Shown here: positions 4,726 to 30,004 of the stretch, piece after piece
Position numbering within the stretch: the stretch's first letter is position 1
Layout: every line of letters begins with the position of its first letter
DNA from: Allopusillimonas ginsengisoli
Lineage (GTDB): Bacteria > Pseudomonadota > Gammaproteobacteria > Burkholderiales > Burkholderiaceae_B
DNA: 64,000 nt
Direction of reading: 5' to 3'
Assembly (NCBI RefSeq): GCF_004153455.1
Contig: NZ_SDQE01000014.1
Coordinates: forward strand, 1-64,000
Notes under the pieces: generated by a model
Database searches by the model: none
What the model saw: only the letters and a program-made list of their open reading frames with translations
What the model was told of the DNA's origin: nothing
Program-made: the position numbers and the translations under genes

Positions 4726-7700
4726 TCAGTCTCGCGAGAACCAGCGGTAAACCAGTGCCAGGCCGCTCACGGTACCCACGCTCAACTCGGCGGTCAGGCC
4801 GCGGGCCAATCGGTAGCTGGCATGCGCCACGGTGCCCGTATCCGACAAGGCCTGTCTCAGGCTGAATGTCACGCCATTGGCCAGACCTTTACTGACAATA
4901 ATGAAACGGCGCTCGATATCGCTGGCCCCGTCATCCAGCCCCCGGACAACACTTTCCGCCGGAAGAATACTGCCCGCCCCGCCCAGTTCGCCCGAACGCA
5001 TGCTGACCTCGTCGATGCCAAACTTGCGGTAGAACGGCTCGCCATCGCCCAGAAAGGAGGTGCCTACCGAGAACAGCAACGCCACGTCGCCACCGGAATC
5101 GTCCGGCCCATGCCCGAGCAACAGCCAGGACAGCTTTTCGATCTCGCTGACCGCAGGATACGAAATCAAATCAATGCGTGGCCGCTTGGCCGTACCGGCC
5201 ACCCGCACCCCGGCCTCGACTGCCAGCCCGGTGCGCAAGGCCTCGATATCGAGAATCGGGCTGGTGATGTCACCCTGAAAGGTAATGGTGCCCCGGCGCA
5301 GCTGCAGCCGCTGGCCATAGGTTTCGATGGCGCCGCCGCGCGTACGCAGCGCCCCCATGGCGGTGAGCTTGTCGCCGATCATGGTGATATGCAACTTGCC
5401 CACCAGCCCAGAGTTCACGCCGTAGCCCGTCAGGTAAAAACGCGGCCCCAGATCCACGTCGAGCTCCAGAGACATATCCATGGGCACGCTGGCCTCCTTG
5501 GCCTGCTGGCCAGGGCGTATCACCACCACGTCGCTGTCCACCGTGGGGATGCCACCCAGCATATCCAGATCGAACCAGCCCGCATCGGCGGTGATCGCAC
5601 CCTTGATGGCGACCTTGGGCAGCTCGGCGGCCAGACGCAGCTTGCCCGTCAGCATGGCATAGCGGTCGGCACGCTGCAGCAGCGGATATCGATAGAGATC
5701 AATATCCACCGTGCCGATGGACTCAAAGATATCCCACTCGCCTGTGAGTGTGAGACTGCCGTTCTGCGCATCCGGATTGCTGCTCACCCACTCCGCCGTA
5801 CGCCACTCCTTGGGCTTGGCGCGCAGCCGCGCCGGAAAACTCAACTTGTCCAGTATCAACCGATTATTGTCGATATGCGCGGTGAGCGTGCCATCCAACA
5901 GGCGAATGCCATCGTCGATACGCACAATTCTCAATTTTTCGCCATTGATCGTGCCGTTGCTGCCCCAGCTGCCATCGGACTGGCTTTCAACATCGATCTG
6001 TGCGCGCAAGGAGCCGCCAAACTCCATCGCATCGCCCGTAAACAGGCTCAGCCAGCTCAAGTCGTCTACATCGGCATCCAGCCTCACAGTCTTGCGATCT
6101 TTGGGCTCCAGGTACAGACTGCCGTCCCGGGCGTGCAGCAATGTGCTCCCCTGGGCTGTGATCCGGCCCATATCCTTGGTGACGACATTCAGGTTGGCCG
6201 TCAGCGTGCTGGCCGTATTGCTGGCCCGCTTTGCCTGCAGATCCAGGGTCAGCGTCTGCAAACCCAGCGGAAAAGGCGGTTCGGCCGGCACGGTGATATC
6301 GCCCGACAAGTGCTTGATATGTGCCGACCCTTCGAGCACGCCGGCAAATTTAAAATCCCAGTCCAGGCCCAATGCGATCTCATCGTCTTTTTTGTCCGCC
6401 TGCCCGCGTATTTTTACGCCGCCCTGCTTTTCGCTTTCTTCGGTAGCCATACCGAGTTTTTTGCGCAATGCGTCGATGCGGCGCTCGGACACCACCAGTT
6501 GATCAATTGCGCCTTGCGTTTCCCAGCGCCCCGCGCCGCCTCGTGACCCCGCATGCGCGAGCGTCACCAACGGGCGGGAATCCATCAGCAGATCGATGCG
6601 GCTGCGCCCTATTTCCCACTGCCAGGCAGGCGCCTGCGCGCCCGGGATGAAACTGACCGTCGTCGGGCTGTCCGACTTCAGCGAAAACCCGGCATGATCG
6701 CCATCGATCGAGCGCAGCGTGCCGCGCCAGCCCTCGGCCTGCCTGCCATCCGGCCCATTGCCCCAGCCGCCTTCCAGCACCACATGTGCGTCAATCGGCG
6801 CCTCGCCCACCTTGCCGGCGACCGCATGATCGGGCGTGTATTGCGCAATCAGATCGGTTTTGTGCTGATCCAGGGTGCCGGCCAGATCGCCAGCCAGCGC
6901 CGCGCCGCCCGGCACGTCCGGCCAAAAGGCCGCCAGCACGGGCGCCTTCATGTCCAGCTTGACATGGCTGTCGGTTGACCCCAGCGAACCCTTGGCCTGC
7001 AGATGATTGGGCCCCAGCGTAAGATCCATGTCGATCGCCGCCAGCGCAAGATGCTTGAGAAGGGGAGGAACGATAGGCGCCGCGGGCTCAGTGGCTTGTT
7101 CCTCGGGCGATACAGCCTCGGCGGGTTCTGTCGCAGGCGGCGTGCCGTCTGCTGGCGGTACATCTGCCACGGTATGCTTGGGCGGATTATTCACCACCTG
7201 TGTCTTCAAGTGTCCGGCCAGCGCCTGCTTGTTCCAGGAAGAGCCTTCACCGAACACCAGCGACACCTCTGCGGATTCGACCACACTGCGATCAAGCAGC
7301 TGCAGATCAAAATCCGCCGCGAGACTCAGTACCGCCGGCGGAATGACATCGCCCACCAACTGGCCGATATTCAGTTTGTCGGCCTTGAGTTCGCCAACCA
7401 GGCGGTCCTTGACCGCTTCGCCAACCTGCTCCGACTGCCAGTCCACTGCTGCCTGCAGCGACGAACCATCCGCCAGCGTGACATCCGCCTTGGCGTCCTT
7501 GAGCGGAAACACCGCTCTTGGCGTGAGCGTCGCCTGCACGTCCGCGGCCATGCCCTGCCCGGTGCCGTCCACGTTCAGCGTCAACTGATCCAGATTGCCT
7601 CGCACCGTGGTGTCCAGCGCCAGGGTGCAGTCTTCATCCTGCGCATCGGCAGGAAGGGTTTCCAGATAATTTCGAGCGCACAGCGGCGAGGCCGGTGTCA

Positions 7701-8349
7701 ACCCTTTGGCCACGGTGGTCAGTTTGATGTCTGCAGGCCAGGGGTCTTGCAGCGAAGCCAGGTTCGCATCCCCGCTCAAGGTCGCGCTCACCTGCTCATT
7801 GCCGACTTCCAGGTTGCGCAACGCAAGCTGCCCACCCGCGTTATCCACATACAAAGACGCATCAACGCCGGCAATGTCGACCGGGATAGGCTCACCGCCC
7901 TGACGCACCACAATCGTGTCCACGGCAAAGCGATCCACCGCCAGACTGACGGGCAAGGACGGCATGGAGAACGGCTCGGAGGGCGGCGCTTGTTCGGCAG
8001 GCACCGGCAGGTCGACCTCCACCGCGCCCGCAGACAAATCGAGAATATGCAGACGCCGCTCCAGCAGCTCACGCCACTCCACCCGCAACTGCAGATTCTC
8101 GAGCTGGACACGCCCTTCATCGGGCAGCGGCATATCAAATTCGCCGACCCGCAGGCCATCCCACACCGACCCCGATATCCCGCTGACCTGCGCATCGACC
8201 TGCCGCGCACCTGTCACCAGCGCCCAGCGCGTGCCCGAAGGCGTGGCCAGCACCCAATAGCAAAAACCGCATACCACTACCAGCAGCAGTACAACTATCG
8301 GACCTATCCAGATGAAGGCTGATCGCAACCAGCGGCTTGTACGACTCAA
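4726..8349 (-). CDS. tamB: TamB, translocation and assembly module inner-membrane protein
   Basis: About 1207 residues. A single N-terminal membrane anchor (W-I-G-P-I-V-V-L-L-L-V-V) is followed by a long beta-rich AsmA/TamB-type repeat body and the conserved C-terminal TamB (DUF490) domain, ending in Y-R-W-F. It partners with TamA to move beta-barrel substrates or phospholipids across the periplasm. I place the start at TTG 8349, whose last two bases are shared with the TGA of tamA. The frame extends further upstream to 8472, but that part lies inside tamA and encodes no sensible signal. The 4-nt stop/start overlap implies translational coupling. Confidence 0.92.
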   Translation of the reverse strand: MSRTSRWLRSAFIWIGPIVVLLLVVVCGFCYWVLATPSGTRWALVTGARQVDAQVSGISGSVWDGLRVGEFDMPLPDEGRVQLENLQLRVEWRELLERRLHILDLSAGAVEVDLPVPAEQAPPSEPFSMPSLPVSLAVDRFAVDTIVVRQGGEPIPVDIAGVDASLYVDNAGGQLALRNLEVGNEQVSATLSGDANLASLQDPWPADIKLTTVAKGLTPASPLCARNYLETLPADAQDEDCTLALDTTVRGNLDQLTLNVDGTGQGMAADVQATLTPRAVFPLKDAKADVTLADGSSLQAAVDWQSEQVGEAVKDRLVGELKADKLNIGQLVGDVIPPAVLSLAADFDLQLLDRSVVESAEVSLVFGEGSSWNKQALAGHLKTQVVNNPPKHTVADVPPADGTPPATEPAEAVSPEEQATEPAAPIVPPLLKHLALAAIDMDLTLGPNHLQAKGSLGSTDSHVKLDMKAPVLAAFWPDVPGGAALAGDLAGTLDQHKTDLIAQYTPDHAVAGKVGEAPIDAHVVLEGGWGNGPDGRQAEGWRGTLRSIDGDHAGFSLKSDSPTTVSFIPGAQAPAWQWEIGRSRIDLLMDSRPLVTLAHAGSRGGAGRWETQGAIDQLVVSERRIDALRKKLGMATEESEKQGGVKIRGQADKKDDEIALGLDWDFKFAGVLEGSAHIKHLSGDITVPAEPPFPLGLQTLTLDLQAKRASNTASTLTANLNVVTKDMGRITAQGSTLLHARDGSLYLEPKDRKTVRLDADVDDLSWLSLFTGDAMEFGGSLRAQIDVESQSDGSWGSNGTINGEKLRIVRIDDGIRLLDGTLTAHIDNNRLILDKLSFPARLRAKPKEWRTAEWVSSNPDAQNGSLTLTGEWDIFESIGTVDIDLYRYPLLQRADRYAMLTGKLRLAAELPKVAIKGAITADAGWFDLDMLGGIPTVDSDVVVIRPGQQAKEASVPMDMSLELDVDLGPRFYLTGYGVNSGLVGKLHITMIGDKLTAMGALRTRGGAIETYGQRLQLRRGTITFQGDITSPILDIEALRTGLAVEAGVRVAGTAKRPRIDLISYPAVSEIEKLSWLLLGHGPDDSGGDVALLFSVGTSFLGDGEPFYRKFGIDEVSMRSGELGGAGSILPAESVVRGLDDGASDIERRFIIVSKGLANGVTFSLRQALSDTGTVAHASYRLARGLTAELSVGTVSGLALVYRWFSRD

Positions 8350-10121
8350 AACGCAATACCCAGGGAAAAATGCAGACGCAACTTCTTGTCGCGCTGGCCA
8401 TAGGCCAGATCGACGAAAAACGGCCCTGCCGGTGTCCGGACAGCAAGGCCCGTGCCATAGCCGACATGCCAATCCATATCCCCGAATGTCCGGGCGGCAT
8501 CGCCAGCGTCGACAAATACATTCATGCCAAGCGATTCAGTGAAATAGTGTGTGTACTCCACGCTGGCCACCGCCAACGCGTAGGCGCCAATGATGGCATC
8601 GCCGCGCGGCTGGCCTATGCTCTGGAAGCGATAGCCGCGTATCGTACGCGCGCCACCGGTACGATAGCCGAAGTCTGCAGGCAGGCGGTCGGTTTGCGTC
8701 CAGACCTTGCCAACTTCCGCGCGCGCCGTCACCACATCGCGGCGCCCCACGGGCCACCACTTTTGAGCCCTGACCCCCGCCCGCGAAAAACTCTGGCCTT
8801 CGTCCAGCGTCACGCCAGTACCCAACCCGATCTCGATCAGATTGCCTTCGCGGGGATCGTATTTTTTATCCACATCGCGCCGCAAGAAGCGATAGGTGCC
8901 CGTCAAGGTGGGCACCTCGTAACCCGGGGCGCCGCTGATGCGCGTTTTGTCGTAGGCAGCCACCAGCCCCCACTCCGACTCGTAATCGACACGGCTGTCA
9001 CCGCCGGCTTCCCAGGCCTTGAGGCGCTTGGCGCCCAGGCCCAAGCGGCTGTTTTCCAGCCCCTCGATGTCCGAATGCTCGTAGAGCACCCCTACGCTGT
9101 CCTGATGGCCACTGCGCGTAGGGGGCAAATGCACGTCGAAGAACAGGCGTTGACGATCTTTGTCCAGCCCGGCGCCCGTTTCGATCCAGACAGGCTTGCC
9201 GAACACCACGTTCTGTCTGTACAGGCCCTCGACCCGCAAGCCGTGATCACTGTCCACCCCGATCGAAGTGGTGACCCGCCGCGCTGGTGCTTCAGAGACA
9301 TCCACACGAACAGGCAGTTCGACCGAGCCATCCTCCAGGACTTTCTGCGCGGACTCGTCCTGATTCAGCGTAACAAACGCCCCGCGAAAAAACGAGGTGG
9401 ACTGCAGCGCCTGCTGCCAGTCATCCAGCTTGTCCTGATCGTAGGGATCCCCCTGCGCATAGTGAACATAGCGATCAATCAACGATTCGGGCACGCGCTT
9501 GAGGCCCGATACCGTCAATGGCCCCATCACTACGCGGGGGCCGCTGTCCACCTTGACGAACAGATCAGCCTTGGCGGTTTCGGCGTCTACGGTCGCCTGC
9601 GTACTCTCATAGCGGGCAAAATAGAAATCCTTGCGGCTGACACCATCGAGCAGCGATTCCTTGGCTTCTCGCCAGGACTTGCTGATAAACGGCATGCCCT
9701 CGGTCAGCGGCCAGTCGCGCCGCAAGCCGATCAGCCGGGTTTCGAACTGCGGACGCTCGATCTGGCCCGAAAACTGAATATCGACGCCATCCACATGCGT
9801 GCGCTCGCCCGGTTCGATCACGATATCCCAGGTTTCGCCAGCAACATCCTCGCCCACCTCGAGCGTGACCACCGGCGAAAAAAATCCCTGCGTTTCAAGC
9901 GCCGACACCGTGGCGTCGTGCGCGCGGCGTCGCAAGCGCGAGACTTCGCCGCCGTCCTGATCTTCGGCCAGGCGGGTAATGGCCTCGACCGCACCATTGA
10001 TGGCCTGCAGCGCCTCTGGCGGCACGCCCCCAGGATCGATCACCACCTCTGGGCGATCCGCGCGCGCCTCGTGGACGAAACCCGCCACCAGCAACAACCC
10101 GACGACAACGACCCCACGCAT
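8346..10121 (-). CDS. tamA: TamA, Omp85-family outer-membrane protein
   Basis: About 591 residues. A Sec signal peptide (M-R-G-V-V-V-V-G-L-L-L-V-A-G, ending ARA) is followed by periplasmic POTRA domains and a 16-strand Omp85 barrel. R-T-G-G-A-R-T-I-R-G-Y-R-F-Q-S is the Omp85 lid-lock region (RGY), and the chain ends in the outer-membrane-type C-terminus G-I-A-F. ATG 10121 was chosen because it begins the signal peptide and follows the apbC stop by 4 nt; the frame opens further upstream inside apbC. It forms the TAM complex with the product of the overlapping tamB. Confidence 0.92.
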   Translation of the reverse strand: MRGVVVVGLLLVAGFVHEARADRPEVVIDPGGVPPEALQAINGAVEAITRLAEDQDGGEVSRLRRRAHDATVSALETQGFFSPVVTLEVGEDVAGETWDIVIEPGERTHVDGVDIQFSGQIERPQFETRLIGLRRDWPLTEGMPFISKSWREAKESLLDGVSRKDFYFARYESTQATVDAETAKADLFVKVDSGPRVVMGPLTVSGLKRVPESLIDRYVHYAQGDPYDQDKLDDWQQALQSTSFFRGAFVTLNQDESAQKVLEDGSVELPVRVDVSEAPARRVTTSIGVDSDHGLRVEGLYRQNVVFGKPVWIETGAGLDKDRQRLFFDVHLPPTRSGHQDSVGVLYEHSDIEGLENSRLGLGAKRLKAWEAGGDSRVDYESEWGLVAAYDKTRISGAPGYEVPTLTGTYRFLRRDVDKKYDPREGNLIEIGLGTGVTLDEGQSFSRAGVRAQKWWPVGRRDVVTARAEVGKVWTQTDRLPADFGYRTGGARTIRGYRFQSIGQPRGDAIIGAYALAVASVEYTHYFTESLGMNVFVDAGDAARTFGDMDWHVGYGTGLAVRTPAGPFFVDLAYGQRDKKLRLHFSLGIAF

Positions 10122-10125
10122 GCAG

Positions 10126-10977
10126 TCAGGGCTTCCGAGCGACGACCGAGGGGCGGCTGCTCGACATATCCGGCGGCAGCGCCGCGACATTGGCCGCCAG
10201 CTTGGTCGCTATCTCGATGTAAGCGCGGGCCGCCTCGCCGTCTGGTTCGGCCACGACACTGGGCATGCCCGAATCGGTCTGCTCCCGTATCCGCATCTGC
10301 AAGGGCAGGGCTCCCAACCACGACAGGTTGTATTCGGCCGCCATGTCGCGCCCGCCATGCTCTCCGAAAATCGGCTCGGCGTGACCGCAATGACTGCAAA
10401 TGTGCACCGACATATTTTCGACCACCCCCAGCACCGGCACATTCACTTTCTGGAACATGCGCAGGCCCTTGCGGGCATCAGCCAGCGCGAGATCCTGGGG
10501 CGTGGTGACGATAATCGCGCCCGTGAGCGGCACTTTCTGCGCCATCGTCAGGGCAATATCGCCGGTGCCGGGCGGCATGTCGACGATCAGATAATCCAGA
10601 TCGTGCCAATTGGTTTGCGTGAGCAATTGCTGCAAAGCCTGCGTGACCATCGGCCCTCGCCAGATGGCAGGCGCATCGTCATTGATGAGAAAACCAATGG
10701 AATTGGCCTGCAGACCATGTTTTTCGAGCGGCTCCATGGTCTTGCCATCCAGGCTCTTGGGTTTGCCGGAAAGCCCCAGCATAATAGGCACGCTGGGCCC
10801 ATAGATATCGGCATCCAGCAGGCCGGTACGCGCCCCCTGGCGCGACAGCGCCAGGGCAAGGTTGACGGCAGTCGTGCTTTTGCCGACGCCGCCCTTGCCC
10901 GACGCGACGGCAATGATGTTGCGTACATTGGCCATGGGCTTGAGCCCCGGCTGCACGGCATGGCTGACAATCTGCAT
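10126..10977 (-). CDS. apbC: Mrp/ApbC-family Fe-S cluster carrier ATPase, N-terminally short
   Basis: A 283-residue P-loop ATPase that binds and delivers Fe-S clusters. The deviant Walker A G-K-G-G-V-G-K-S-T lies near residue 26, D-A-D-I-Y-G-P-S near 56, and the cluster-ligating C-S-H-C pair near residue 195. Most homologues have an N-terminal MIP18/DUF59 domain of about 90 residues that is missing here. ATG 10977 has GGAAGGA 9 nt upstream; TTG 11040 would add 21 residues. Upstream, the same frame stays open to a TAA at 11109-11107 and still encodes a DUF59-like stretch (LLTVTVPLAYPS), so the N-terminus looks eroded. Leads the operon with tamA and tamB. Confidence 0.9.
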   Translation of the reverse strand: MQIVSHAVQPGLKPMANVRNIIAVASGKGGVGKSTTAVNLALALSRQGARTGLLDADIYGPSVPIMLGLSGKPKSLDGKTMEPLEKHGLQANSIGFLINDDAPAIWRGPMVTQALQQLLTQTNWHDLDYLIVDMPPGTGDIALTMAQKVPLTGAIIVTTPQDLALADARKGLRMFQKVNVPVLGVVENMSVHICSHCGHAEPIFGEHGGRDMAAEYNLSWLGALPLQMRIREQTDSGMPSVVAEPDGEAARAYIEIATKLAANVAALPPDMSSSRPSVVARKP

Positions 10978-11170
10978 GTGTTCAGATCCTTCCGCCCGGC
11001 GCCAGGGTGGCGCCAAAGCAGTTTCAATACGTTTCGCCAACGGCCACGCGCCGTTGTGCGAGGGATACGCTAAGGGTACAGTGACGGTTAGTAATCCGTG
11101 TCGGCATTAGACCTCAAGTCGACAGCCAGACACAGGAAGAATACACTGAAGACTCAAGAATAGCGGATCG

Positions 11171-11187
11171 CGGGAATTTTTTTCCCG
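11171..11187. repeat. Hairpin CGGGAA/TTCCCG around a T-run
   Basis: CGGGAA (11171-11176) and TTCCCG (11182-11187) flank five T residues, in the gap between the divergent apbC and the small membrane-protein gene. It lies about 20 nt before the ATG at 11209 and could affect that gene's translation. Function unknown. Confidence 0.4.
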
Positions 11188-11208
11188 GAACGCGGTCTAT
11201 CAAGGCAC

Positions 11209-11463
11209 ATGAATACATTTAATCAAATCATCCGCGGCATCCTGTTTTTCGTATTGGCCATCTTCGGCATGGTTGCGGCCTTCGTTTTCATGGTGTCCAC
11301 GGCGATCGCCGTCGGCATCCTGTATATCGTCGCCCGCATCAAAGGCCGGCCCTTCGGCGCCCGCGCCTATTGGGAACAACGCCGCCAGGCCGCGCCAAAG
11401 CGGTCTGAGCGCATGTTCCGCGCCAAAGATGTCACCGATGTCGAGATGCGCGAAATCCCCTGA
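11209..11463 (+). CDS. Small inner-membrane protein, unknown function
   Basis: 84 residues. A long hydrophobic stretch from about residue 8 to 42 is enough for one or two membrane spans, followed by a basic cytoplasmic tail with several Arg and Lys (R-R-Q-A-A-P-K-R-S-E-R). The tail ends in an acidic D-V-T-D-V-E motif. There is no cysteine or known catalytic motif. It stands alone, divergent from apbC and about 300 bp ahead of metG. I do not recognise a characterised family. The amphipathic, well-formed sequence makes it a credible gene. Confidence 0.65.
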   Translation: MNTFNQIIRGILFFVLAIFGMVAAFVFMVSTAIAVGILYIVARIKGRPFGARAYWEQRRQAAPKRSERMFRAKDVTDVEMREIP

Positions 11464-11766
11464 TTTCATCTGCGGGATGCCAACGCCGTATCGGCCGCGA
11501 GCCCTGTAAAACAGCGCGGCGGCTGTTTCATTGCATCTTGCACAATTAACAATTGTTCACCATATTGCGTCGGCACTTTTACAACATTGCCGGCCAAGTC
11601 CTCGCGTTTGGCCCTGCCCGCTGCCAACCCCCGCAGCACCTCAGCCAACGACAATCACAACGCGCTTTAATCACTGGCCAAGCAGGTTCGCGGCGAAAGC
11701 CCTAAAATCGATCTTTTGCGCCGCCCGGCGCACCACCCTCGATTTTCTTACTCAAGCCTCCTGAAC
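11464..11766. other. Gene-free stretch before metG
   Basis: About 300 bp with no supported gene. It contains a 10-bp palindrome AACAATTGTT (11548-11557) in a locally AT-rich patch, which may be part of the metG promoter region. A 62-codon minus-strand frame at 11466-11654 has no recognisable product and I do not call it. Confidence 0.4.
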
Positions 11767-13839
11767 ATGCCGCGCACGATTTTCGTCACCACCGCACTGC
11801 CCTACGCCAACGGTTCCTTCCACATCGGCCACATCATGGAATACATCCAGGCCGATATCTGGGTTCGTTCGATGCGAATGTCGGGCCATACGGTGCATTT
11901 CGTGGGCGCCGACGACGTACACGGCGCACCCATCATGCTCAAGGCCGAAAGCGAGAAAATCACCCCGCACGAACTGGTTGCCCGGTATGCGGCCGAACGC
12001 CCGCGTTACCTGAACGGCTTTCATATCGAATTCGACCACTGGCACTCCACCGATTCGGCCGAAAACATCGAGCTGTCACACGATATCTACCGCAAGCTCA
12101 AGGCGGCAGACTTTATCTACAGCCGCGATATCGAACAGTTCTACGACCCCGTCAAGGGCATGTTCCTGCCCGACCGCTATATAAAAGGCGAATGCCCCCG
12201 TTGCCACACCAAAGACCAATACGGCGATTCGTGTGAATCCTGCGGCGCGGTCTATTCGCCCACCGAACTGATCGAACCCTATTCCACGCTTACCAAGGCC
12301 CGGCCTGTTCTGAAGACGTCGGAACACTTCTTTTTTCGCCTGTCCGACCCTCGCTGCGTCGCTTTTCTGCAAGCGTGGACCACGGGCACCAACGCGCAAG
12401 GCAACCAGCACCTGCAGGCTGAGGTGCTGGCCAAGACCCGCGAATGGCTGGGCACCGGCAACGCAGACAGCGACGCCAATCTTGCCGACTGGGACATCTC
12501 CCGCGACGAGCCTTATTTTGGCATCCCTATTCCCGATGCGCCCGGCAAGTATTTTTATGTCTGGCTGGACGCGCCTGTCGGCTATCTGGCGTCGCTCAAG
12601 GCCTACTGCAACAAGCAGGGCATCGATTTCGACGCCCTGCTGGATCCAGCCGGCGATACCGAGCAGGTGCACTTCATCGGCAAGGACATCGTGTACTTTC
12701 ACGCCCTGTTCTGGCCCGCCATGCTCAAGTTTTCGGGCCGCAAAACGCCGGACAACCTGCATGTCCATGGCTTTATCACCGTCAGCGGCGAAAAAATGTC
12801 CAAGAGTCGCGGCACGGGCATCTCGCCTATCCGCTACCTGGATCTCGGCATGAACGCCGAATGGATGCGCTACTACATTGCCGCCAAACTCAATAGCCGC
12901 GTCGAAGACCTGGATTTCAATCCAGACGACTTCATCGCCCGCGTCAACAGCGACCTTATCGGTAAATACGTCAACATCGCCAGCCGCGCCGCCAGCTTCA
13001 TCAGCAAGCACTTCGACGGCCAGCTCGCCTATCTTGGCGATCCGCAAGCCCTGCAGCAGGAACTTGAACAGGTGGCGCAAGAGGTACGCAGCGATTTCGA
13101 GCTTCGCGAATATGGCCGTGCCGTGCGACGCCTCATGGCCCATGCGGATCAAATCAATCAGGCCTTTGACGCCGCCCAGCCCTGGATCATGGCCAAGGGC
13201 ATCTCCAGCGCCAGCGACGAACAGAAAGCCGGCCTGCAGAACGTTTGCTCGCGCGCCCTGGCTGGCTTCAAGGCATTGACCGTGATGCTCGCCCCCGTGC
13301 TGCCCGCCCTGGCTCACCGCGTGGCCCACGAACTCTTTGGCGAAACACGCAATTATCTCTGGGCCGACGCCGGCGTACTGCCTACCCAGATCGCCCCTTT
13401 CAAGCATCTCATGCAGCGCGTCGAGCCGACCATGCTGGACGACCTTTTCGAGCCGCCGGCACAAGCCCTGCCAACGCCCGGCGGCCAGCCCATCGCAGAC
13501 GCCATCGATATCAAGGATTTCGGCAAACTGGATCTGCGCATCGCCCGCATCGTCGAATGCAGCGAGGTCGAGGGCTCGGACAAACTGCTGCGTCTCATGC
13601 TGGACGTCGGCGAGGGTCGCCTGCGCCAGGTATTTTCAGGCATCAAGTCGGCTTACAAACCAGAGGATCTCAAGGGCCAGCTCACCGTCGTGGTGGCCAA
13701 TCTGGCGCCCCGCAAAATGCGCTTTGGCGTCTCCGAAGGCATGGTGCTGTCCGCCAGCCACGCCGACAAGGACGCCGATGCCGGGCTGTACGTGCTGCAA
13801 GCCTGGCCCGGCGCGCAGCCGGGCATGCGCATCAGCTAG
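11767..13839 (+). CDS. metG: Methionyl-tRNA synthetase
   Basis: 690 residues. Class I synthetase charging tRNA-Met in the cytosol. HIGH motif in S-F-H-I-G-H near residue 17, a zinc knuckle C-P-R-C...C-E-S-C-G near 145-160, and KMSKS in G-E-K-M-S-K-S-R near residue 345. A C-terminal tRNA-binding OB-fold domain covers roughly 590-690, so this is the long dimeric form. ATG 11767 starts the canonical [16 protein letters not shown]; the open frame begins earlier at 11716 but adds no conserved residues. The ribosome site is weak. Confidence 0.97.
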
Positions 13840-23024: not shown

Positions 23025-24503
23025 TCAGAAGGTTCGACGCAGCAGCAAGGTCATTTCGTTCTGCCTGAAATCAAACGCCCAGCCCAGATTGCTGCGGTTG
23101 GCACTGTGCCGCACACGCAGTTCAGGGGTCAGGCCAGCAATGTTCCAACCCTTAGCGCACAGGCTCACGATATAAACCTGCTGCTTGTCCCGTCGGCGCC
23201 CACCCAAAAAACCATCATAAGCGTCGTTTTGGCTCAGGCGAAAAATCCCCATTGCGTTCAAATACAAGCCCGCACTGGTTTCGAACGCATGCGAGATGCC
23301 CATACGCATGGCCAGATCCCTGCTGCTGGCTTGCTCGACTTCATACTTTTTGCGGACAAGATCCAGCCCGCCGTAGATCGACGTAGCGCGTCGCGGTACG
23401 TAGCTGGCAAAGAGACTGCTCCGATACTGGCTGTAATCACTGGCGATCCCCCTCGCCGCTTGTTTGTGATGGTAGCGGCGCGCGTCCAGCGATGCGCCTG
23501 CGTGCCATTTGGCGGCGATCATGCGCCGCCATTCCATCTGCATGCCACCCGATAGATAATTGCTGCGGCCGTCGCGGTAGTAATGTTCAGCGTAAGGCAA
23601 GAGGCTCACGCTAGTGCGCGCGCTCAGATACTGGTAGCCCAGATACAGCATCGAGCTTGCTCCGCTGTAGTTCCTGACGTCCGTGATCCCTACCAACCCG
23701 TTACGCCGGTAATAGCTGCCGTAGCTGATCGGCTGAACCAGCAAATTGTGATTGCCGGTCAGGTTATAACGGCGCTCCAGCACGGCCTCGTAACCCATCA
23801 AGGCCGAACTGATGGGGTCGGCCATGTTGCGCTCGACCACGCATATGTCCATGAACACCGCCAGGCAGCTGCGATCGCCATTGGCATGATTGATGTTGCT
23901 GTTATAGCCCATGCCGACGGCGAGGCTGCCATGCCAGCGGGCTCGCGCATCCAGCGCGGCCAGGTATTGTTGTGCCAAGCGCCGGCCGTAGTCAGGCAGT
24001 TCTCCACGCCTGGCCGACTCGAAGTTGGCACGAGCCTCGGCATCGCGGTTGTCTTCAAACTGCAGGCGGGCCAGTTCCAACCTGATGCGGATGTCTTCGG
24101 GGGCAGCAGTATGAGCGGCCTGCATACGGTGTAGCGCCCGAGCATGGTCACCTTGCTGGCGTGCCAGCAAGCCTAAAGCCATATCAACCAAGGCGGCCCG
24201 GTGATCACGCAGCAGGCGGTAACGGCTGATGAACTCGAGCAAGCGATCCCACTGCCCTGTGTTCAGCGCGATATAAATGGCGGGCTCAAGGCTTTCGAGC
24301 GTGGTCTGGACTTCGTAGATGGTGTTGTCGTGCACGACCGCCCCGGGTGGTGCGATCAGGCTGTCAGGCGGCAAGGCGCGGCGCTCGACGGCGCGCTGCG
24401 TCTGCTCCCGCAAAAAAAATGTGTGGTCATCGTTGGTCGCGACAGCAAGCAAGGGCTGGCAAACCAGCAACAGGCACAGCGCAACAGTGCCACGGTGCAG
24501 CAT
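23025..24503 (-). CDS. Slam-family outer-membrane translocon (TPR plus DUF560 barrel)
   Basis: 492 residues with a Sec signal peptide (V-A-L-C-L-L-L-V-C-Q-P-L-L-A). An N-terminal TPR domain covers about 75-190 (A-L-G-L-L-A-R-Q-Q-G-D-H-A-R-A-L). A C-terminal 14-strand DUF560 barrel from about residue 195 (G-M-G-Y-N-S-N-I-N) ends in the outer-membrane-type R-R-T-F. Slam proteins export surface lipoproteins and, in the hemophilin branch, unlipidated heme-binding proteins. Its neighbour upstream encodes exactly such an unlipidated substrate, so this is likely the HsmA-type member. Third gene of a heme-uptake unit, after a strong hairpin. Confidence 0.88.
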   Translation of the reverse strand: MLHRGTVALCLLLVCQPLLAVATNDDHTFFLREQTQRAVERRALPPDSLIAPPGAVVHDNTIYEVQTTLESLEPAIYIALNTGQWDRLLEFISRYRLLRDHRAALVDMALGLLARQQGDHARALHRMQAAHTAAPEDIRIRLELARLQFEDNRDAEARANFESARRGELPDYGRRLAQQYLAALDARARWHGSLAVGMGYNSNINHANGDRSCLAVFMDICVVERNMADPISSALMGYEAVLERRYNLTGNHNLLVQPISYGSYYRRNGLVGITDVRNYSGASSMLYLGYQYLSARTSVSLLPYAEHYYRDGRSNYLSGGMQMEWRRMIAAKWHAGASLDARRYHHKQAARGIASDYSQYRSSLFASYVPRRATSIYGGLDLVRKKYEVEQASSRDLAMRMGISHAFETSAGLYLNAMGIFRLSQNDAYDGFLGGRRRDKQQVYIVSLCAKGWNIAGLTPELRVRHSANRSNLGWAFDFRQNEMTLLLRRTF

Positions 24504-24544
24504 GGATGAGAGACTCGAGATAGTGTAGAAAAGGCACAGAATAT

Positions 24545-24566
24545 GAAGGCCGGCGAACCGGCCTTC
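24545..24566 (-). promoter_or_regulatory. Perfect 9-bp intercistronic hairpin before the Slam gene
   Basis: In the minus-strand transcript, GAAGGCCGG and CCGGCCTTC enclose a TTCG tetraloop, in the 100-nt gap between the secreted-protein gene and the Slam gene. The T-rich tail is weak, so it may stabilise the upstream message or partially terminate, giving more substrate than translocon. It could also be a plain terminator. Confidence 0.7.
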
Positions 24567-24603
24567 ATAAGGAGCGGTTTACGTCAGAAGCATGCGAGGC
24601 TGC

Positions 24604-25491
24604 TTATAGCCGCTTGCCTCCGAACGCCACATGGTCGGCGGCGGCAGCACCTTTGTAGATACCGGCAAGCGCAGCCGCATCGTTATAAAAGCGGCCACTG
24701 ATGGTGCTGTCGTTAGAGAATTCTCCGTTGGAGAAAATGCGCGTGCCTGCGAAGTCAACGGCGTCGGTGCCACGCGTGATCGAACCCGAGATCGAACCAT
24801 TGCCGCCGCTGTAGTTGGCGGTAAGCATACCGCTGTACAGATTAGGCGCATGCGGCAGGTTGCCGTCTACGCCAGTCTGGCGAATGCCGACCACATCATA
24901 GTTGGCGGCAACCAATGTAGGCATGCTGGCCACCGCATTGTCACCCGCATACCACACGGTGCGGCTGGCGTCTGCCATGTTCAGATCCGTGCTGTCACCG
25001 GAGCTGGGTGAACCAACGGCCTTGGACCATTCTCCAAAATACACACCGTTGCCGCGGGCAGTCTCCTTGACCTGGCCGATGACCAGGCCGCCGAACTGCG
25101 GCCAAGTCTCCAGCGGAAGGGTCGTGATCTGGCGCACGCTATAGACATTGGCAGCGTTATGCTGGTCGTTGCGCCAAACCTGGGCGATTTTGATGCTTCG
25201 GATCAACGGAAAAGGAGCATAGTGTGCCTCGGCACTGTTGGCCGCAGCGTTGTCCGTCACCTGCTTAACCGGACCGCCAAAAATATCCACGCTACCGGAC
25301 CGGGCCGTGCCGTCCGCGCGGAGCATTTCGAGCCCGGCATAACCCAGGGGCCTGACAAGGGGTGGGAAGTTGGACGCGGCAACGGTGACGTTGTCACTCG
25401 AGGAACTGCCTTGCAGGTTGACCGCTTGCGCATACACGGCGGTCGAGCTGAACAGGGCCAAGGCTACCATGGTGAGAACAGATTTCTTCAT
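24604..25491 (-). CDS. Secreted hemophilin-like Slam substrate (TbpB-type C-terminal barrel)
   Basis: About 295 residues. A type I signal peptide (K-K-S-V-L-T-M-V-A-L-A-L-F, cleavage after V-Y-A) has no lipobox cysteine, so the product is soluble rather than a surface lipoprotein. The C-terminus carries a TbpB_B_D-like signature: I-S-G-R-F-Y-N-D-A-A-A-L-A-G-I-Y-K-G followed by A-F-G-G-K-R. This barrel is the part read by Slam. The N-terminal domain would bind ligand, probably heme by analogy with hemophilin HphA. ATG 25491 has GGAG 8 nt upstream; the frame opens at 25527. Flanked by the receptor and Slam genes on the same strand. An alternative is a non-heme ligand. Confidence 0.82.
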   Translation of the reverse strand: MKKSVLTMVALALFSSTAVYAQAVNLQGSSSSDNVTVAASNFPPLVRPLGYAGLEMLRADGTARSGSVDIFGGPVKQVTDNAAANSAEAHYAPFPLIRSIKIAQVWRNDQHNAANVYSVRQITTLPLETWPQFGGLVIGQVKETARGNGVYFGEWSKAVGSPSSGDSTDLNMADASRTVWYAGDNAVASMPTLVAANYDVVGIRQTGVDGNLPHAPNLYSGMLTANYSGGNGSISGSITRGTDAVDFAGTRIFSNGEFSNDSTISGRFYNDAAALAGIYKGAAAADHVAFGGKRL

Positions 25492-25562
25492 ACAACATCT
25501 CCAAGGAAAGGAAGAGAAAAAATACAAAATTTTCCTTAAAAAATCGAGACGACAAAATTGAC

Positions 25563-28500
25563 TCAGTAGCGCAATGCCACGTCCAGCCTCATTGTGCGGC
25601 CCGGCCCTGGTGTGGCAATTTTAGCCAGGGGGTCCAGGTAGTAACGGTCAGTCAGGTTGTCCACGGAAAAGCGTGCGCTGGCCTGCCGGCTGAAGTTATA
25701 TTCGGCAAACAGGTCGAACAACATGACAGGCTCCCAGTAGTACGGGCGAATTTGCAGCAATCCCTTATTCTTGGCCACGATACGTTCGAGCTTTTTGTTT
25801 TCGGTCCGGCTGTGATAGCGCATACGCATGCCCAGGTTCAGGCTGCGCGCCATCAGGCGCGCACCCAGATCCAGGTTGATTGAATACTTGGGCTGCAGGC
25901 TGTAGAACGTCATGGCGCCGGGGAATCCGCCAGGCATACATTGGGGCCAGCGGTTAAAGGTAGGGTCCAGTTGCACGGCGTAATCGGCGTCGCACATCTC
26001 CTGGCGCAGCCGCAGCGTCGCGCCCAGCCCCCCGTAAAAAAGACCCGTGTCCACACGGCTTTGCAGTTCAAGACCACTCATGATCTTGCGGTCGAACTGA
26101 AGGGTGTTCATGTGTCCGGTGCGGTCGTAAAAATCCCGGATGGTGTTGTGGTAATAGCTGAGCTTGACGTCGGCCTGTCGTACGCTTTGCAGCAGATCGC
26201 GCAAGTTGTAAGTCAGGCCGATCTCCCAGGCCTGGTTGCGTTCGGGCTTCATCGTGATGGGGAATTCGCCGCGTATGCCGTGACGGTTGGAAAACTCCAT
26301 GATGCTGGGAAAACGCGCCATGCTGCTCAGCCGGCCGTAGACCCGGGCACGGTCGTCCAACTGATAAGACGCCACCAGTTGAGAGGACCAGGCTAGGCTA
26401 CGCTGCTTGTCCGGGCGCTGCCAGGGATCGGCCGCGCGATGAGAGGCAAAGCTTTCTAAGTTTCGCAATTTGTACTTTGGATGGGTGCCGCCCTGCGCAT
26501 AGACCGTTTCGGTCGGATTGATCTGACCGTTGTAGAAAGGGTTTTCGCTGCGATCGGCTTTGCCGTTTCTCAGTGTGACGGGATAGGCTATTTCCCAGTA
26601 ACTAAGGCCGGTAGATAGGTCTCTGTCTAGCTCAAAACTGGTTATGTGATTGGCAATCCGGTATGCCTCCCATTCCTCCATTGCTTGTGCCGGGTCCGCC
26701 CACACGCGTTTGCGCATGGCCAACTCCTCGTCCGTCGCGAGGCGGCCATACCCGATGATCTGATGCGTATTAATTCTGGTACGGGCCCAGGATTCATCCC
26801 GCTCGGCCCGGCGGCGATCGGTTTCGTCATCGAAGCCCCTATATCCGCCATACCGCGCTCCCGCGCTGACGTGCAGCTTTTTAGTGGCTTGCCAGTCCAG
26901 GCCCAAGCTCGCGCCGTACTCTTCTCGCCGACCCGAGGCCGGGCCGAATGCCACCGACGTGAGGCCACCGCCCACCACGGGTGTATCGACGAACACGTAG
27001 TCGGTCTTGCGCTCGTATTGCCAGTCGGCCGACACCGTCAACGCGAGATTATTCCTCAGGCGAAAGCGATTGTTCAGATCCATGCCCGTGCGGGTCGAAT
27101 GGGTATCCTGCTGATTGCCGATGATGACGTCATAAATGCCATCGATATTGGGCTGCCTTGCGGGCGGGTTGTCGAGGTCTATCATCCCGTAGTCAATCCG
27201 AATTTTGCAGTACGGGTCGAGGGCGTTGTATTTACACTGAACCCAGTGATCCCAGGATTGATCTCCGTCTTTAACCTGATAGGTGATATCGCCATTCTGA
27301 TAGCGCGTACTTTCATTGACATTGCGCCATAGCGCCATGTCGAGATCCAACCAGCGCGAGCCTTCGGGCTTGACTTCGTAACCCAGGCGGTAGACGTGCT
27401 GGTCCACGCGCGTGACGGGAAATGGATACTGGAAGTTCGTGCGTGCGAAGCTCAAGTTCTCATCGGTATCGACCATATTGATCAGCAGCTCTGAGGCCAT
27501 GGCAGGCATCTCGCCAAAAGCCAGTCGGTTACGGGTAAAAGCCAGGCTGATTTTCTGGTTATGAGGCAAATACCAATTATTTTTAGCCAGCAGGCTTTCA
27601 GCCGACGTGCTGGTGTAGGGCACTTCGTAGCCTGGTGCGTAGACGCGGGCCAGGCTGGGATACAGGTTTTGGGGCACGAAGCTATTGTCAGACAGCATAT
27701 TCGAGGTGTACTTGTCGGCGCCCTTGGTGCCGGCAAAATAGTTGCCGCGCTGGGCGTCGCTATAAGCCAGCATGACGTCGAACATCTCGTGCTTGTGCGC
27801 GCCGCTGACAAAGACCTTGCGGTCGTCCAGATTGAAGCGCCGCACATCGTCGCGCGATCGCATATCCACCTGCGGTACCCAAAAGGCCAGACCAGGATTG
27901 TCCCAGGGCGTGGCGGTAAACGCGCCGGGGATATCGCGATAATCCTTTCCTACGAGGGCGAACGGATCGGATGCATCCTTGACGGAGTTGCTGGCAGTGT
28001 TGGCCTTGAGCTCAAGGCCCCAGTTGCGACCAGGCGCAACAATATCGTCCGCTTCGATGGTGCGGATCGCCACAGCACCGCCTATCCCGCTCTTGATGCC
28101 GCGCGTCATTGATGGGCCCTTTTCCACTTCGATGCTGCGGAACAGATTAGGGTCCACATAGTTCCGATTATTGATACCGCGCAACGCCATCCAGACGTCC
28201 AGAGACTGCATGGTGCCATCCACCGTCACCGGAATACGGCCGTTACCAGACAAGCCGCGTATATTGGGAAACAGCGCGGAGCCATTTCGGTTGTCCGCGT
28301 TGTATACGCCATTCATGCCGGCAAACACGTCGCCCACCGAAACGCCCTGGTAGCGCTCCATGTATTGACGATCCACGTACAGATTGGAAATGTCCTTGTC
28401 GTAGACGTTGTCGTGTCCGACCTCATCCTGCGTGCGCTTGCCACTGACGACCACTTCTTCCAGCCTGCGCACATTCTGAGACCGGCCCGCACTCCGCGCC

Positions 28501-28664
28501 TCGCTATCAGATGCCTGCCGCGCACGTTCCGTGGCGCTGTCGCCTCGCGCTTCGCGAGGCGGGCTACTCAAATCAGGAGATCGGTTCGCCTGCGCATGAG
28601 CGTTTGCCGACCACAGGGCGGCGAGCAGGAGGGGCAGTGCCCTGACGGTGAATCGGTGTTGCAT
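25563..28664 (-). CDS. TonB-dependent heme/hemoglobin-type receptor
   Basis: About 1033 residues. Signal peptide Q-H-R-F-T-V-R-A-L-P-L-L-L-A-A-L, cleaved after A-H-A. A TonB-box-like E-E-V-V-V-S-G near residue 70 is followed by a plug domain (R-G-L-S-G-N-G-R-I-P-V-T-V-D-G, V-E-K-G-P-S) and a 22-strand barrel ending L-R-Y. Large extracellular insertions fit a protein-binding receptor such as HphR or hemoglobin receptors rather than a siderophore receptor. ATG 28664 starts the signal peptide and has GGGAG upstream; the frame extends to 28781. A Fur-box-like palindrome lies about 120 nt upstream. Confidence 0.9.
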   Translation of the reverse strand: MQHRFTVRALPLLLAALWSANAHAQANRSPDLSSPPREARGDSATERARQASDSEARSAGRSQNVRRLEEVVVSGKRTQDEVGHDNVYDKDISNLYVDRQYMERYQGVSVGDVFAGMNGVYNADNRNGSALFPNIRGLSGNGRIPVTVDGTMQSLDVWMALRGINNRNYVDPNLFRSIEVEKGPSMTRGIKSGIGGAVAIRTIEADDIVAPGRNWGLELKANTASNSVKDASDPFALVGKDYRDIPGAFTATPWDNPGLAFWVPQVDMRSRDDVRRFNLDDRKVFVSGAHKHEMFDVMLAYSDAQRGNYFAGTKGADKYTSNMLSDNSFVPQNLYPSLARVYAPGYEVPYTSTSAESLLAKNNWYLPHNQKISLAFTRNRLAFGEMPAMASELLINMVDTDENLSFARTNFQYPFPVTRVDQHVYRLGYEVKPEGSRWLDLDMALWRNVNESTRYQNGDITYQVKDGDQSWDHWVQCKYNALDPYCKIRIDYGMIDLDNPPARQPNIDGIYDVIIGNQQDTHSTRTGMDLNNRFRLRNNLALTVSADWQYERKTDYVFVDTPVVGGGLTSVAFGPASGRREEYGASLGLDWQATKKLHVSAGARYGGYRGFDDETDRRRAERDESWARTRINTHQIIGYGRLATDEELAMRKRVWADPAQAMEEWEAYRIANHITSFELDRDLSTGLSYWEIAYPVTLRNGKADRSENPFYNGQINPTETVYAQGGTHPKYKLRNLESFASHRAADPWQRPDKQRSLAWSSQLVASYQLDDRARVYGRLSSMARFPSIMEFSNRHGIRGEFPITMKPERNQAWEIGLTYNLRDLLQSVRQADVKLSYYHNTIRDFYDRTGHMNTLQFDRKIMSGLELQSRVDTGLFYGGLGATLRLRQEMCDADYAVQLDPTFNRWPQCMPGGFPGAMTFYSLQPKYSINLDLGARLMARSLNLGMRMRYHSRTENKKLERIVAKNKGLLQIRPYYWEPVMLFDLFAEYNFSRQASARFSVDNLTDRYYLDPLAKIATPGPGRTMRLDVALRY

Positions 28665-28781
28665 GTGCGTGTCGCTCCCGGCGTTTCCTCTGCGCTGTGA
28701 TGAGTAGGAGGGAAAACTGCGTGGCCCCAGCGCAAAGGGCTGCGCAATGGAGCGATTATGTGGGTTCAACAATGCAGACAA

Positions 28782-28799
28782 TAATGATAATTATCATTA
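28782..28799. promoter_or_regulatory. Fur box upstream of the heme-uptake unit
   Basis: TAATGATAATTATCATTA is a perfect 18-bp palindrome matching the Fur consensus built from GATAAT hexamers. A possible -10 (CATAAT on the minus strand, 28760-28755) lies 20 nt downstream, so iron-loaded Fur would block transcription of the receptor, hemophilin-like and Slam genes. Derepression when iron is scarce is inferred. Confidence 0.85.
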
Positions 28800-28903
28800 C
28801 GGAGGGGCTTGCGGCATGTGGATACTCACGGAATAAAGCTCGCGGGCCATCACTGCCCTGACTGCAATGAACATATCCGTAGCTGCCGTGGGAGAGCGGC
28901 CTG

Positions 28904-29128
28904 ATGTTCGCGGCGTTGGTGCGCGCTGCAACGGGTACACCAGCGCTGGGCGCGTGGGCTTCGTGGCTGCTACTGGGATCTACGCTGGCGTGGGCGGGCG
29001 TGTTCGCCATCTACCTTTGGAATGCGTGGCCCGCGCGCTGCGAACCACGTACGGATGACCAGGAAGGCTGCGCGGAGCCGCTGGGCAAGCAGTGCAGCCC
29101 TTTCTCGGGATCGTCTTCACACTGCTGA
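28904..29128 (+). pseudogene. Probable nnrS C-terminal remnant
   Basis: A 74-codon frame whose residues resemble the last membrane span and tail of NnrS heme-copper membrane proteins. L-A-W-A-G-V-F-A-I-Y-L-W is followed by P-A-R-C-E-P-R-T-D-D-Q-E-G, compared with the usual aromatic span and P-x-L-x-x-P-R-x-D-G. Only this end is present; a TAG in frame at about 28880 and the heme-uptake unit replace the rest. NnrS genes often sit beside Crp/Fnr (Dnr-like) regulators, and one follows here. It could instead be a small membrane protein; GGAG lies 9 nt before its ATG. Confidence 0.4.
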
Positions 29129-29140
29129 AACGGGAGCCAC

Positions 29141-29902
29141 CTAGTGCGGCGAACAACAGCGAAACAGTGCCTTGTCCTCAGCAGATACGGCTTCGCGTTT
29201 GGCAGGCTTTGGCACAGGCGGCGGCAGGCGGGCTTGTCGGCATATCGCGTCAACATCAAGCAACACCAGTTCGCGAGCCCGCCCGCCTATCAGGCCGGCA
29301 CGCCGAAACGCAGCCAGCGTACGCGACAGGTTTTCGGGCGTCATGTTCAACTGCCGGGCCAGCACCGCATGACTGGCAGGCAAAGTGATCCAGGCGCTGC
29401 CGCGCTCCCGATATATATCCAGCAAATAAGTGATCAGTCTTTGCGTGGCATTGGTGATGGTCAGCAGATCGATACGATTAATGGCTTGCACCAGATGATT
29501 GGAAACAATCTGCAGTAGCGTATAGGCAACTTCCGGGGAATGCCGCGTCATGTCCAATAACAGTTCGCGATCCAGCCGATAGAGTACGGAGTACTCACTG
29601 GCTTGTGCGGACAAAGGGTAATGACCACTCTCCGAAAACATCACGGTGGCACCGAGCAGACAGCCCTGTTCCAGCGTTTGCACGATTTTTTCATCGCCGT
29701 TGTAACTGGGCAGGTACAACGTGATACCGCCGCGCTCAATCCAATAGAAGTAGTCTGCGGCCTGGCCCGCGTGGAATAAATGCTGCTTGGACGGCAGGCA
29801 GATACGCCGCGCGCGTTCGGCCAGCGCCTTAAGGCTGTTGGGGTCAGCATGCTGAAAGGCCGGGAGATTGCTCAAGGCCTTAATCAGAGAAGGAGATTGC
29901 AT
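29141..29902 (-). CDS. Crp/Fnr-family transcriptional regulator (Dnr-like)
   Basis: About 253 residues from ATG 29902 (GTG 29944 would add 14). A cyclic-nucleotide-binding-like sensor barrel covers about 20-130, a long dimer helix follows, and the C-terminal winged helix contains L-N-M-T-P-E-N-L-S-R-T-L-A-A-F-R-R near residue 190. There is no N-terminal cysteine cluster, so it is not an oxygen-sensing Fnr; the recognition helix E-x-x-S-R fits the Dnr/Crp group. No ribosome site is clear. Stands alone between an nnrS-like remnant and the TRAP operon. Confidence 0.85.
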   Translation of the reverse strand: MQSPSLIKALSNLPAFQHADPNSLKALAERARRICLPSKQHLFHAGQAADYFYWIERGGITLYLPSYNGDEKIVQTLEQGCLLGATVMFSESGHYPLSAQASEYSVLYRLDRELLLDMTRHSPEVAYTLLQIVSNHLVQAINRIDLLTITNATQRLITYLLDIYRERGSAWITLPASHAVLARQLNMTPENLSRTLAAFRRAGLIGGRARELVLLDVDAICRQARLPPPVPKPAKREAVSAEDKALFRCCSPH

Positions 29903-30004
29903 GAAAATATGAGAAGAAGATGGAGCTCTGCTAGACGCAGTCACCGTGACGACGGGCCTGCCATTTAGCTATAACGCACAGGGCGTCTCGATATTTCTCA
30001 GCCC

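Follow-up and report, generated by a model that had tools for sequence, protein, structure and literature searches.

A question raised by the unit at positions 23,025 to 28,799 of a 64,000-nucleotide stretch of Allopusillimonas ginsengisoli DNA (contig NZ_SDQE01000014.1; the whole stretch is hereafter called the window) is whether its secreted protein carries heme, as resemblance to the hemophilins would suggest, or another ligand. In the open reading frame (ORF) list of the window, three genes follow one another on the minus strand, in the order TonB-dependent receptor (TBDR), secreted protein (the cargo) and Slam, the translocon of the type 11 secretion system (T11SS). The cargo is interpreted here as a secreted scavenger of hemophilin fold for a metal chelate other than heme held by two histidines, delivered to a HasR-like receptor; a probability of roughly 0.52 is given to this reading. 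The genes and the two parts of the cargo were located as follows.

25563-28664, minus strand: TBDR gene, 1033 amino acids (aa), with ATG at 28664 and an alternative upstream start, TTG, at 28781
24604-25491, minus strand: cargo gene, 295 aa, over the cut-off of NF041636 and of hemophilin fold
23025-24503, minus strand: Slam/T11SS outer-membrane translocon, 492 aa, with a tetratricopeptide repeat (TPR) domain (PF24575) and a SlipAM barrel (PF04575)
25087-25413, minus strand: N-terminal handle of the cargo, approximately aa 27-135, whose own histidines are H90 and H111
24610-25056, minus strand: C-terminal beta-barrel of the cargo, approximately aa 146-294, covered by the NF041636 match (146-294) and by strands in the model

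All three genes were open and full length. A sequence-only reading had described them as a same-strand TBDR-cargo-Slam unit with the parts of hphR-hphA-hsmA in a probable Alcaligenaceae member; the coordinates were confirmed, and the set of parts and the Alcaligenaceae-like nature of the genome were supported. The Slam assignment was likewise supported, with 105 bits against the SlipAM/DUF560 profile PF04575 (cut-off 22) and 56.1 bits against TPR_Slam PF24575 (cut-off 35.2). The HphR-HphA-HsmA system of Acinetobacter baumannii (PMC8560813) shares with the window unit a TBDR, an unlipidated secreted cargo, a Slam and the handle-plus-barrel fold.

The N-terminus of the cargo resembled a signal peptide and carried no lipobox, and none of 60 window-type cargos matched a crude lipobox pattern, in line with the unlipidated, secreted-type protein predicted earlier. 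The cargo scored 84.3 bits against the NCBIfam model NF041636, 'Slam-dependent surface lipoprotein', a thin margin over the cut-off of 80. Its predicted structure (54-row alignment) had a mean predicted local distance difference test (pLDDT) value of 91.8 and displayed the handle-plus-barrel fold of the hemophilin (HphA/Hpl) family. The best PDB match in Foldseek was apo HphA of A. baumannii (7re4; E 3.7e-11, 24% identity; template modelling score 0.66 by target length and 0.55 by query length), followed by the hemophilins 8glo, 8gmm, 6om5 and 8gm3 and then by TbpB. The comparison with HphA that had been named as the test of a TbpB-like C-terminal barrel therefore left that claim standing at the level of predicted fold, but not at that of the Pfam profile TbpB_B_D, which gave 13.5 bits (cut-off 26). 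Going by its family, the barrel is likely the part recognised by Slam, and the cargo was encoded beside a Slam gene in the window and in 50 of the 54 named loci described below. Three handle residues, W106, R120 and Q121, were invariant in the 54-row alignment.

The receptor exceeded the cut-offs of both the Plug and the barrel models of Pfam, and its best phmmer match was HasR (3csl, E 1.3e-23). Its structure was predicted from 38 rows (37 relatives and the window) with a mean pLDDT of 80.0, and the best Foldseek match was the HasR-HasA-heme complex (E 2.4e-40). In view of the fold matches of the cargo to HphA and of the receptor to HasR-HasA-heme, the two proteins resemble a secreted binder and the receptor that serves it. 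HasA-HasR is also made up of a secreted binder and a dedicated receptor, and among solved folds HasR comes closest to the window receptor; HasA is exported by type 1 secretion. The available text of PMC8560813 describes HasA as structurally distinct from HphA. The histidines of HasR were tried as a discriminator and rejected: H795 of the window receptor stands opposite H603 of HasR in a column not conserved as histidine in the 38-row alignment, and H189 of HasR was missing in the window receptor and in a hemophilin-linked receptor of the same genome (C22a, below) alike.

Heme-ligand positions and the hemophilins of the genome

In HphA, heme is bound by H43 and H106, as given in the available text of PMC8560813; this numbering was tied to the structure by counting, since histidines 33 and 96 of the 7re4 chain correspond to them with an offset of 10. 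Both columns were inspected after aligning 60 window-type cargos with 10 hemophilins. The former were taken as one per locus after removal of identical copies; the short cargo of locus L087 was excluded, as were the surplus cargos in L038 and L077. The latter consisted of eight proteins found by the heme-binding Pfam model HphA_N (PF22828) and two found by HphA_C (PF22829), the HphA_N hits of L096, L098, L106 and L108 and the second protein of genome G600 being excluded. At the H106 column, all 10 hemophilins have histidine and all 60 window-type cargos have a gap. At the H43 column, histidine was present in eight of the 10 hemophilins (the exceptions being C22a and C22b of the window's own genome) and in none of the 60 cargos. 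No histidine column was conserved across the window-type cargos, the richest holding histidine in 16 of 58 rows.

Against HphA_N the cargo scored 13.3 bits, below the cut-off of 22, and the four other window-type cargos scanned failed this model as well. It also remained below the cut-off of HphA_C (20.4 bits against 31); this model is of no help in separating the cargo from hemophilins because the window-type cargos L090 (the same as L052), L091, L092 and L093 pass it, so that failing it is no trait of the group. In a tree constructed by a quick method with midpoint rooting, the 10 hemophilins were split from the 60 window-type cargos by one branch with a Shimodaira-Hasegawa-like approximate likelihood ratio (SH-aLRT) support of 100, with a warning of long branches meeting at that separating branch. 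On these comparisons of sequence, the cargo is placed in a sister group of the hemophilins in which the fold and the secretion partner are kept and the heme-ligand histidines are absent.

Two true hemophilins, each with an upstream TBDR, could be located on contig C22 of the same genome, C22a at 131138-131464 and C22b at 28913-29242. Both were found by HphA_N and again by HphA_C; their passing HphA_N, like that of L110, is a pass of the model by which they were found. C22a, to which the window cargo is 25% identical, belongs to a unit (L019, C22:122000-140000; positions 7046-13174 of that stretch) consisting of a TBDR (871 aa), a TonB-like gene, the hemophilin and a Slam, with ExbB-like and CobN-like genes nearby. 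This unit is likely the real heme system of the genome, and its CobN-like neighbour is a possible metal-removing enzyme. The C22b unit (L109, C22:21000-37000; positions 7515-11145 of that stretch) consists of a TBDR and a hemophilin that also exceeds the cut-off of the HpuA model; as tblastn with the window Slam found no Slam in this 16-kb stretch, C22b is possibly served by the Slam of L019. The two proteins thus share with the window cargo the type of Slam cargo and the upstream TBDR, C22a with its own Slam, but differ from it in passing HphA_N and HphA_C and in carrying the H106-type histidine. A further SlipAM fragment at G000:C27:75276-75641 (L003), with an internal TAG and covering only profile positions 106-219, is a decayed Slam. 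No heme oxygenase of PF01126 was detected in the whole genome by a profile search of that family, other heme-degrading families lying outside the search; this differs from the Acinetobacter hemO locus as described in the available text of PMC8560813.

The part of the sequence-only reading that made the middle protein a heme-binding hemophilin was not supported. Because the cargo failed HphA_N, lacked the H43 and H106 histidines, fell on the other side of the tree split and shares its genome with two hemophilins and no PF01126 enzyme, an ordinary hemophilin identity was rejected and the cargo was not filed as such. The reading of this locus is corrected accordingly: the clear hemophilins of the genome are those of C22.

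Relatives of the unit and their neighbouring genes

Within the window's family, a whole-genome search detected the cargo in 15 of 268 genomes, the one carrying the window among them, distributed over six of 43 genera, and a same-strand TBDR upstream with a Slam downstream was present in all 14 relatives for which a wider stretch was examined. When named genomes were scanned using a 15-row cargo alignment, 54 named loci were obtained from Beta- and Gammaproteobacteria; the carriers include Achromobacter pulmonis, Allopusillimonas soli, Alcaligenes, Thauera, Pseudothauera, Comamonas, Halopseudomonas, Pseudomonas, Marinobacter and Neisseria. The scan behind 53 of the window-type rows used two peptide patterns, one being the FGG stretch that adjoins the H106 position; the same stretch also occurred in family relatives found without the FGG pattern. 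The TBDR-cargo-Slam order was complete in 50 of the 54 loci, whereas L041, L042 and L064 end at a contig edge and L087 has a short cargo with no Slam recognised. An order complete in 50 of 54 loci that had been found through the cargo alignment argues that the arrangement is not due to chance.

Neighbouring genes were surveyed with representative proteins as probes (more than 60 bits) within the examined flanks of the 54 named loci. One clade of relatives, including Pseudomonas, Alcaligenes and Marinobacterium (the second clade), adjoins a biosynthesis cluster of AraC, methyltransferase, major facilitator superfamily, ThiF-rhodanese, JAB, CaiB-like, AMP ligase and acyl-CoA dehydrogenase genes, a make-up which we take to be that of the pdt clusters for the siderophore pyridine dithiocarboxylic acid (PDTC). 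At least two of these genes were detected at 14 of the 54 loci, and ThiF, JAB, CaiB, AMP ligase and acyl-CoA dehydrogenase occurred together at four loci with longer or suitably placed stretches (L118, L119, L120 and L074). FecI was near seven and FecR near eight of the 54 loci. In the 19-kb cluster stretch of Pseudomonas putida GM4FR, no further TBDR was seen by eye among ORFs of at least 180 aa. PDTC is described as a Pseudomonas siderophore in the available text of PMC10393863 and PMC2996968, the former citing earlier work on its membrane transporters. Compared with this system, some relatives of the window unit thus lie in a cluster of presumably pdt-like content whose product is only inferred, whereas no pdt-like cluster was seen beside the window unit itself. 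Handle positions such as L136/E, G139/A and V105/T distinguish the two clades, being fixed in 29 and 22 rows; this fits, without proving, that the clade-specific residues reflect different ligands.

A different set of neighbours was observed in the clade of the window. In the window itself, the following features lie upstream of the receptor gene.

28785-28796, no strand: palindrome TGATAATTATCA upstream of the TBDR gene, from a sequence scan
28901-29092, plus strand: truncated C-terminal nnrS remnant of 64 residues, between the Crp/Fnr gene and the receptor
29141-29944, minus strand: Crp/Fnr-family regulator, over the Pfam cut-offs of cNMP_binding and HTH_Crp_2

An NnrS gene was found in the flank of 13 of the 54 named loci, accompanied by an ATP-binding cassette (ABC) ATPase and permease in all 13, by a binding protein in 12 and by a Crp/Fnr regulator in nine; a Crp/Fnr regulator lay near 12 of the 54 loci. 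For the copy at L040, a Pfam score of 262.5 bits confirmed NnrS. Since 78 NnrS genes exceeded the cut-off across the genomes that carry 38 of these loci, a density of approximately 0.46 per megabase, only about 0.4 NnrS genes would be expected near the 54 loci by chance. As NnrS was not found in the flanks of the other 41 loci, some of which are cut, it is not obligatory for the unit.

The remnant in the window was 73% identical over 64 residues to the end of NnrS of Achromobacter pulmonis (L034; tblastn E 3.5e-24) and gave 22.2 bits against PF05940 (profile 323-371), below the cut-off. The Crp/Fnr regulator was 75% identical to the one beside the same-type unit of L034, and the L034 cargo was also the nearest tree row to the window cargo (support 82), the two forming a trio with Allopusillimonas soli (support 97). 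In the rest of the genome, no match to the binding protein of the cassette exceeded 21.7 bits, and no permease exceeded 31% identity. From the remnant, the Crp/Fnr gene and the kinship with L034, the window locus probably once carried the NnrS cassette and lost most of it.

The palindrome TGATAATTATCA was the sole match in the 64 kb at one mismatch or fewer, against 0.05 expected. It is overlapped by a Fur-like 19-base match (15/19) and itself scores 8/10 against an FNR/DNR-type box; on account of this second resemblance, the Fur box was rejected as proof of iron control. Fur-like sites with a shuffle p of 0.02 or less preceded 15 of 56 TBDR rows, the window included; the control used, mononucleotide shuffling, is a weak one. 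A DNR-type site scoring 9/10 or more preceded the TBDR in seven of 12 NnrS-linked rows and in none of 42 others (Fisher 4.5e-6, with a threshold set post hoc); these 54 TBDR rows leave out the window, the second L070 fragment, L041, L049 and L052. Over seven independent pairs, the sign test gave a median p of 0.125, and the tie between the DNR-type site and NnrS-linked units is only suggestive.

The ligand of the cargo

In the proposed mechanism, the cargo would cross the inner membrane by Sec and be passed over the outer membrane by the adjacent Slam. The extracellular protein would then capture a small ligand in its handle and hand it to its own large HasR-like receptor, with TonB-driven import to follow. 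The palindrome before the receptor gene probably controls expression, through iron (Fur), the neighbouring Crp/Fnr regulator or both. As ligand, a metal chelate other than bis-histidine heme is the most likely choice, and heme bound in another way comes second. A broader proposal, which is tentative and somewhat doubtful, is that window-type cargos as a group are Slam-exported carriers fetching metallophores or metal chelates for a HasR-like receptor. One clade would then serve a thiocarboxylate metallophore, and the clade of the window would be tied to a nitric-oxide/denitrification cassette through Crp/Fnr.

Several observations weigh against a ligand other than heme. The best NCBIfam match of the receptor was the heme/hemoglobin receptor model TIGR01785 (219 bits, below the cut-off of 316.85), a model passed by the C22a receptor (329.2) and failed by that of C22b (285.1). 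The nearest solved receptor folds are those of heme receptors, HasR and then PhuR (E 2.1e-31), with ChuA also high; FrpB, ChuA and others follow PhuR in the list, and TbpA lies lower. Within the H43 loop, 16 of the 60 window-type cargos carry a histidine a few residues earlier (SNH, in one case STH), and at least one handle histidine is present in 51 of the 60 (H90 and H111 in the window). Hemophores without two histidines are also on record in the available text of PMC8560813: one histidine in the hemophilin of H. haemolyticus, tyrosine in IsdX1 and no iron coordination in HusA. In Marinobacter oulmenensis (L057 and L088), a window-type unit adjoins a second TBDR and a true hemophilin, and the two units perhaps share one Slam. 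Moreover, with no metallophore genes seen beside the window unit, its ligand class is an extrapolation from related loci, and the sets compared were partly picked by the very traits compared, namely the FGG pattern and, for eight of the 10 hemophilins, HphA_N.

For these reasons, a heme hemophore after all, in which the cargo would bind heme through other residues (tyrosine, methionine or H90/H111) and deliver it to the HasR-like receptor, stays a serious rival, although it is judged the less probable of the two. It is favoured by HasR being the best match of the receptor in sequence as well as in fold, by the closeness of the cargo fold to HphA, by the H43-loop histidines and the Marinobacter locus, and by the Fur-like site ahead of the unit. 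It is opposed by the want of any conserved histidine column, nine of the 60 cargos having no handle histidine at all, and by the gap in all 60 cargos where hemophilins bear H106. The two dedicated hemophilins already held by the genome, its lack of a PF01126 heme oxygenase and the metallophore-type neighbours of some relatives point in the same direction. Binding of a host or environmental metalloprotein, as by HpuA or TbpB, would be in keeping with the length of the family receptors (1012-1239 aa among 55 ORFs over 900 aa), whose large loops might dock such a protein; the window receptor has extra segments relative to the hemophilin-linked receptors of its own genome, the longest at aa 614-662. 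TbpB and TbpA do appear lower in the fold lists, and some carriers have names that suggest host association (Neisseria, Comamonas kerstersii, Achromobacter pulmonis), but many others are named as soil, water and marine genera (habitat being judged from names only), the cargo has no lipobox, unlike TbpB and HpuA, and small-molecule biosynthesis clusters adjoin some relatives, all of which makes this explanation improbable. Least probable of all is that the unit is a decaying relic whose uptake chain may be incomplete after loss of the NnrS-ABC cassette. The reduction of nnrS to its last 64 residues and the low scores of the best binding protein and permease elsewhere in the genome would agree with decay; the open, full-length state of the three genes speaks against it, as do the many relatives in whose examined flanks, some of them cut, NnrS was not found.

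T11SS units with a soluble hemophilin-like cargo have been published, and the window unit as such is therefore a further member; in the available text of PMC8406197 and PMC12282271, subcluster 1B with its soluble TbpBBD cargo and the 'haemophilin-like 1' architecture have a soluble, single-barrel cargo beside a T11SS outer-membrane protein, as here, and this is the class into which the window unit would fall. In that text, outside which lies one mention of a siderophore in PMC8406197, the window-type group is not named, and neither NnrS nor denitrification nor siderophore clusters are given as partners. Literature searches on hemophilin/Alcaligenaceae, Slam/denitrification and NnrS/TonB-dependent, in which the spelling 'haemophilin' was not searched, likewise returned, in the text available, no non-heme subgroup with denitrification or metallophore company; the paper on Slam dealt with gonococcal iron, and those on NnrS did not concern Slam as far as title and opening of the abstract show. 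Resemblance makes it easy to mistake 'hemophilin-like' T11SS cargos for heme carriers, whereas the subgroup in the 54 named loci keeps the fold and the export partner with no histidine at the hemophilin heme-ligand positions, and the neighbours of many of its members point to metal chelates or denitrification. To our knowledge, no secreted metallophore carrier protein is known in the T11SS class. If the interpretation is right, such a carrier would exist within it, and a simple sequence test could split hemophilin-like predictions into heme and non-heme. Under the broader, more doubtful proposal, the hemophilin fold would be a general secreted scaffold for small ligands, with heme as only one of them.

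Variants of the unit and minor elements

The SNH or STH motif of the H43 loop was observed in the cargos of L039-L041, L043-L046, L049, L053, L055-L057, L059, L061, L064 and L084, many of which fall in the NnrS-linked clade. In the window cargo and those closest to it, SNF or SDF stands at this place instead. The motif could mark a subgroup with a one-histidine metal or heme site.

Variation in gene number was also seen. L038 has three window-type cargos, and in L077 one Slam is preceded by two cargos. L059 has a second TBDR and Slam, with no cargo recognised between them; its stretch ends inside that Slam. In Pseudomonas bharatica (L070, 4828-7940), the receptor gene extends over two overlapping reading frames, reflecting a frameshift or an assembly error.

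A window-type TBDR-cargo-Slam unit was present in Neisseria gonorrhoeae (L082 and L134), with 41% identity over the C-terminal two thirds of the cargo; the plasmid-collection record carries no annotated features for it. The gonococcal gene ngo0554 was considered as its member and rejected as a different gene, because its published primers fit L082 and L134 poorly (six mismatches for the forward primer, no site within six for the reverse). A search of the plasmid collection gave six partly matching records, none at 80% coverage.

Between the cargo and Slam genes, one further element was seen by eye.

24545-24566, minus strand: perfect 9-bp inverted repeat with a TTCG loop and no T run after it

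This repeat, a possible attenuator or RNA-stability element, was not among the terminator-like sites of the terminator scan.

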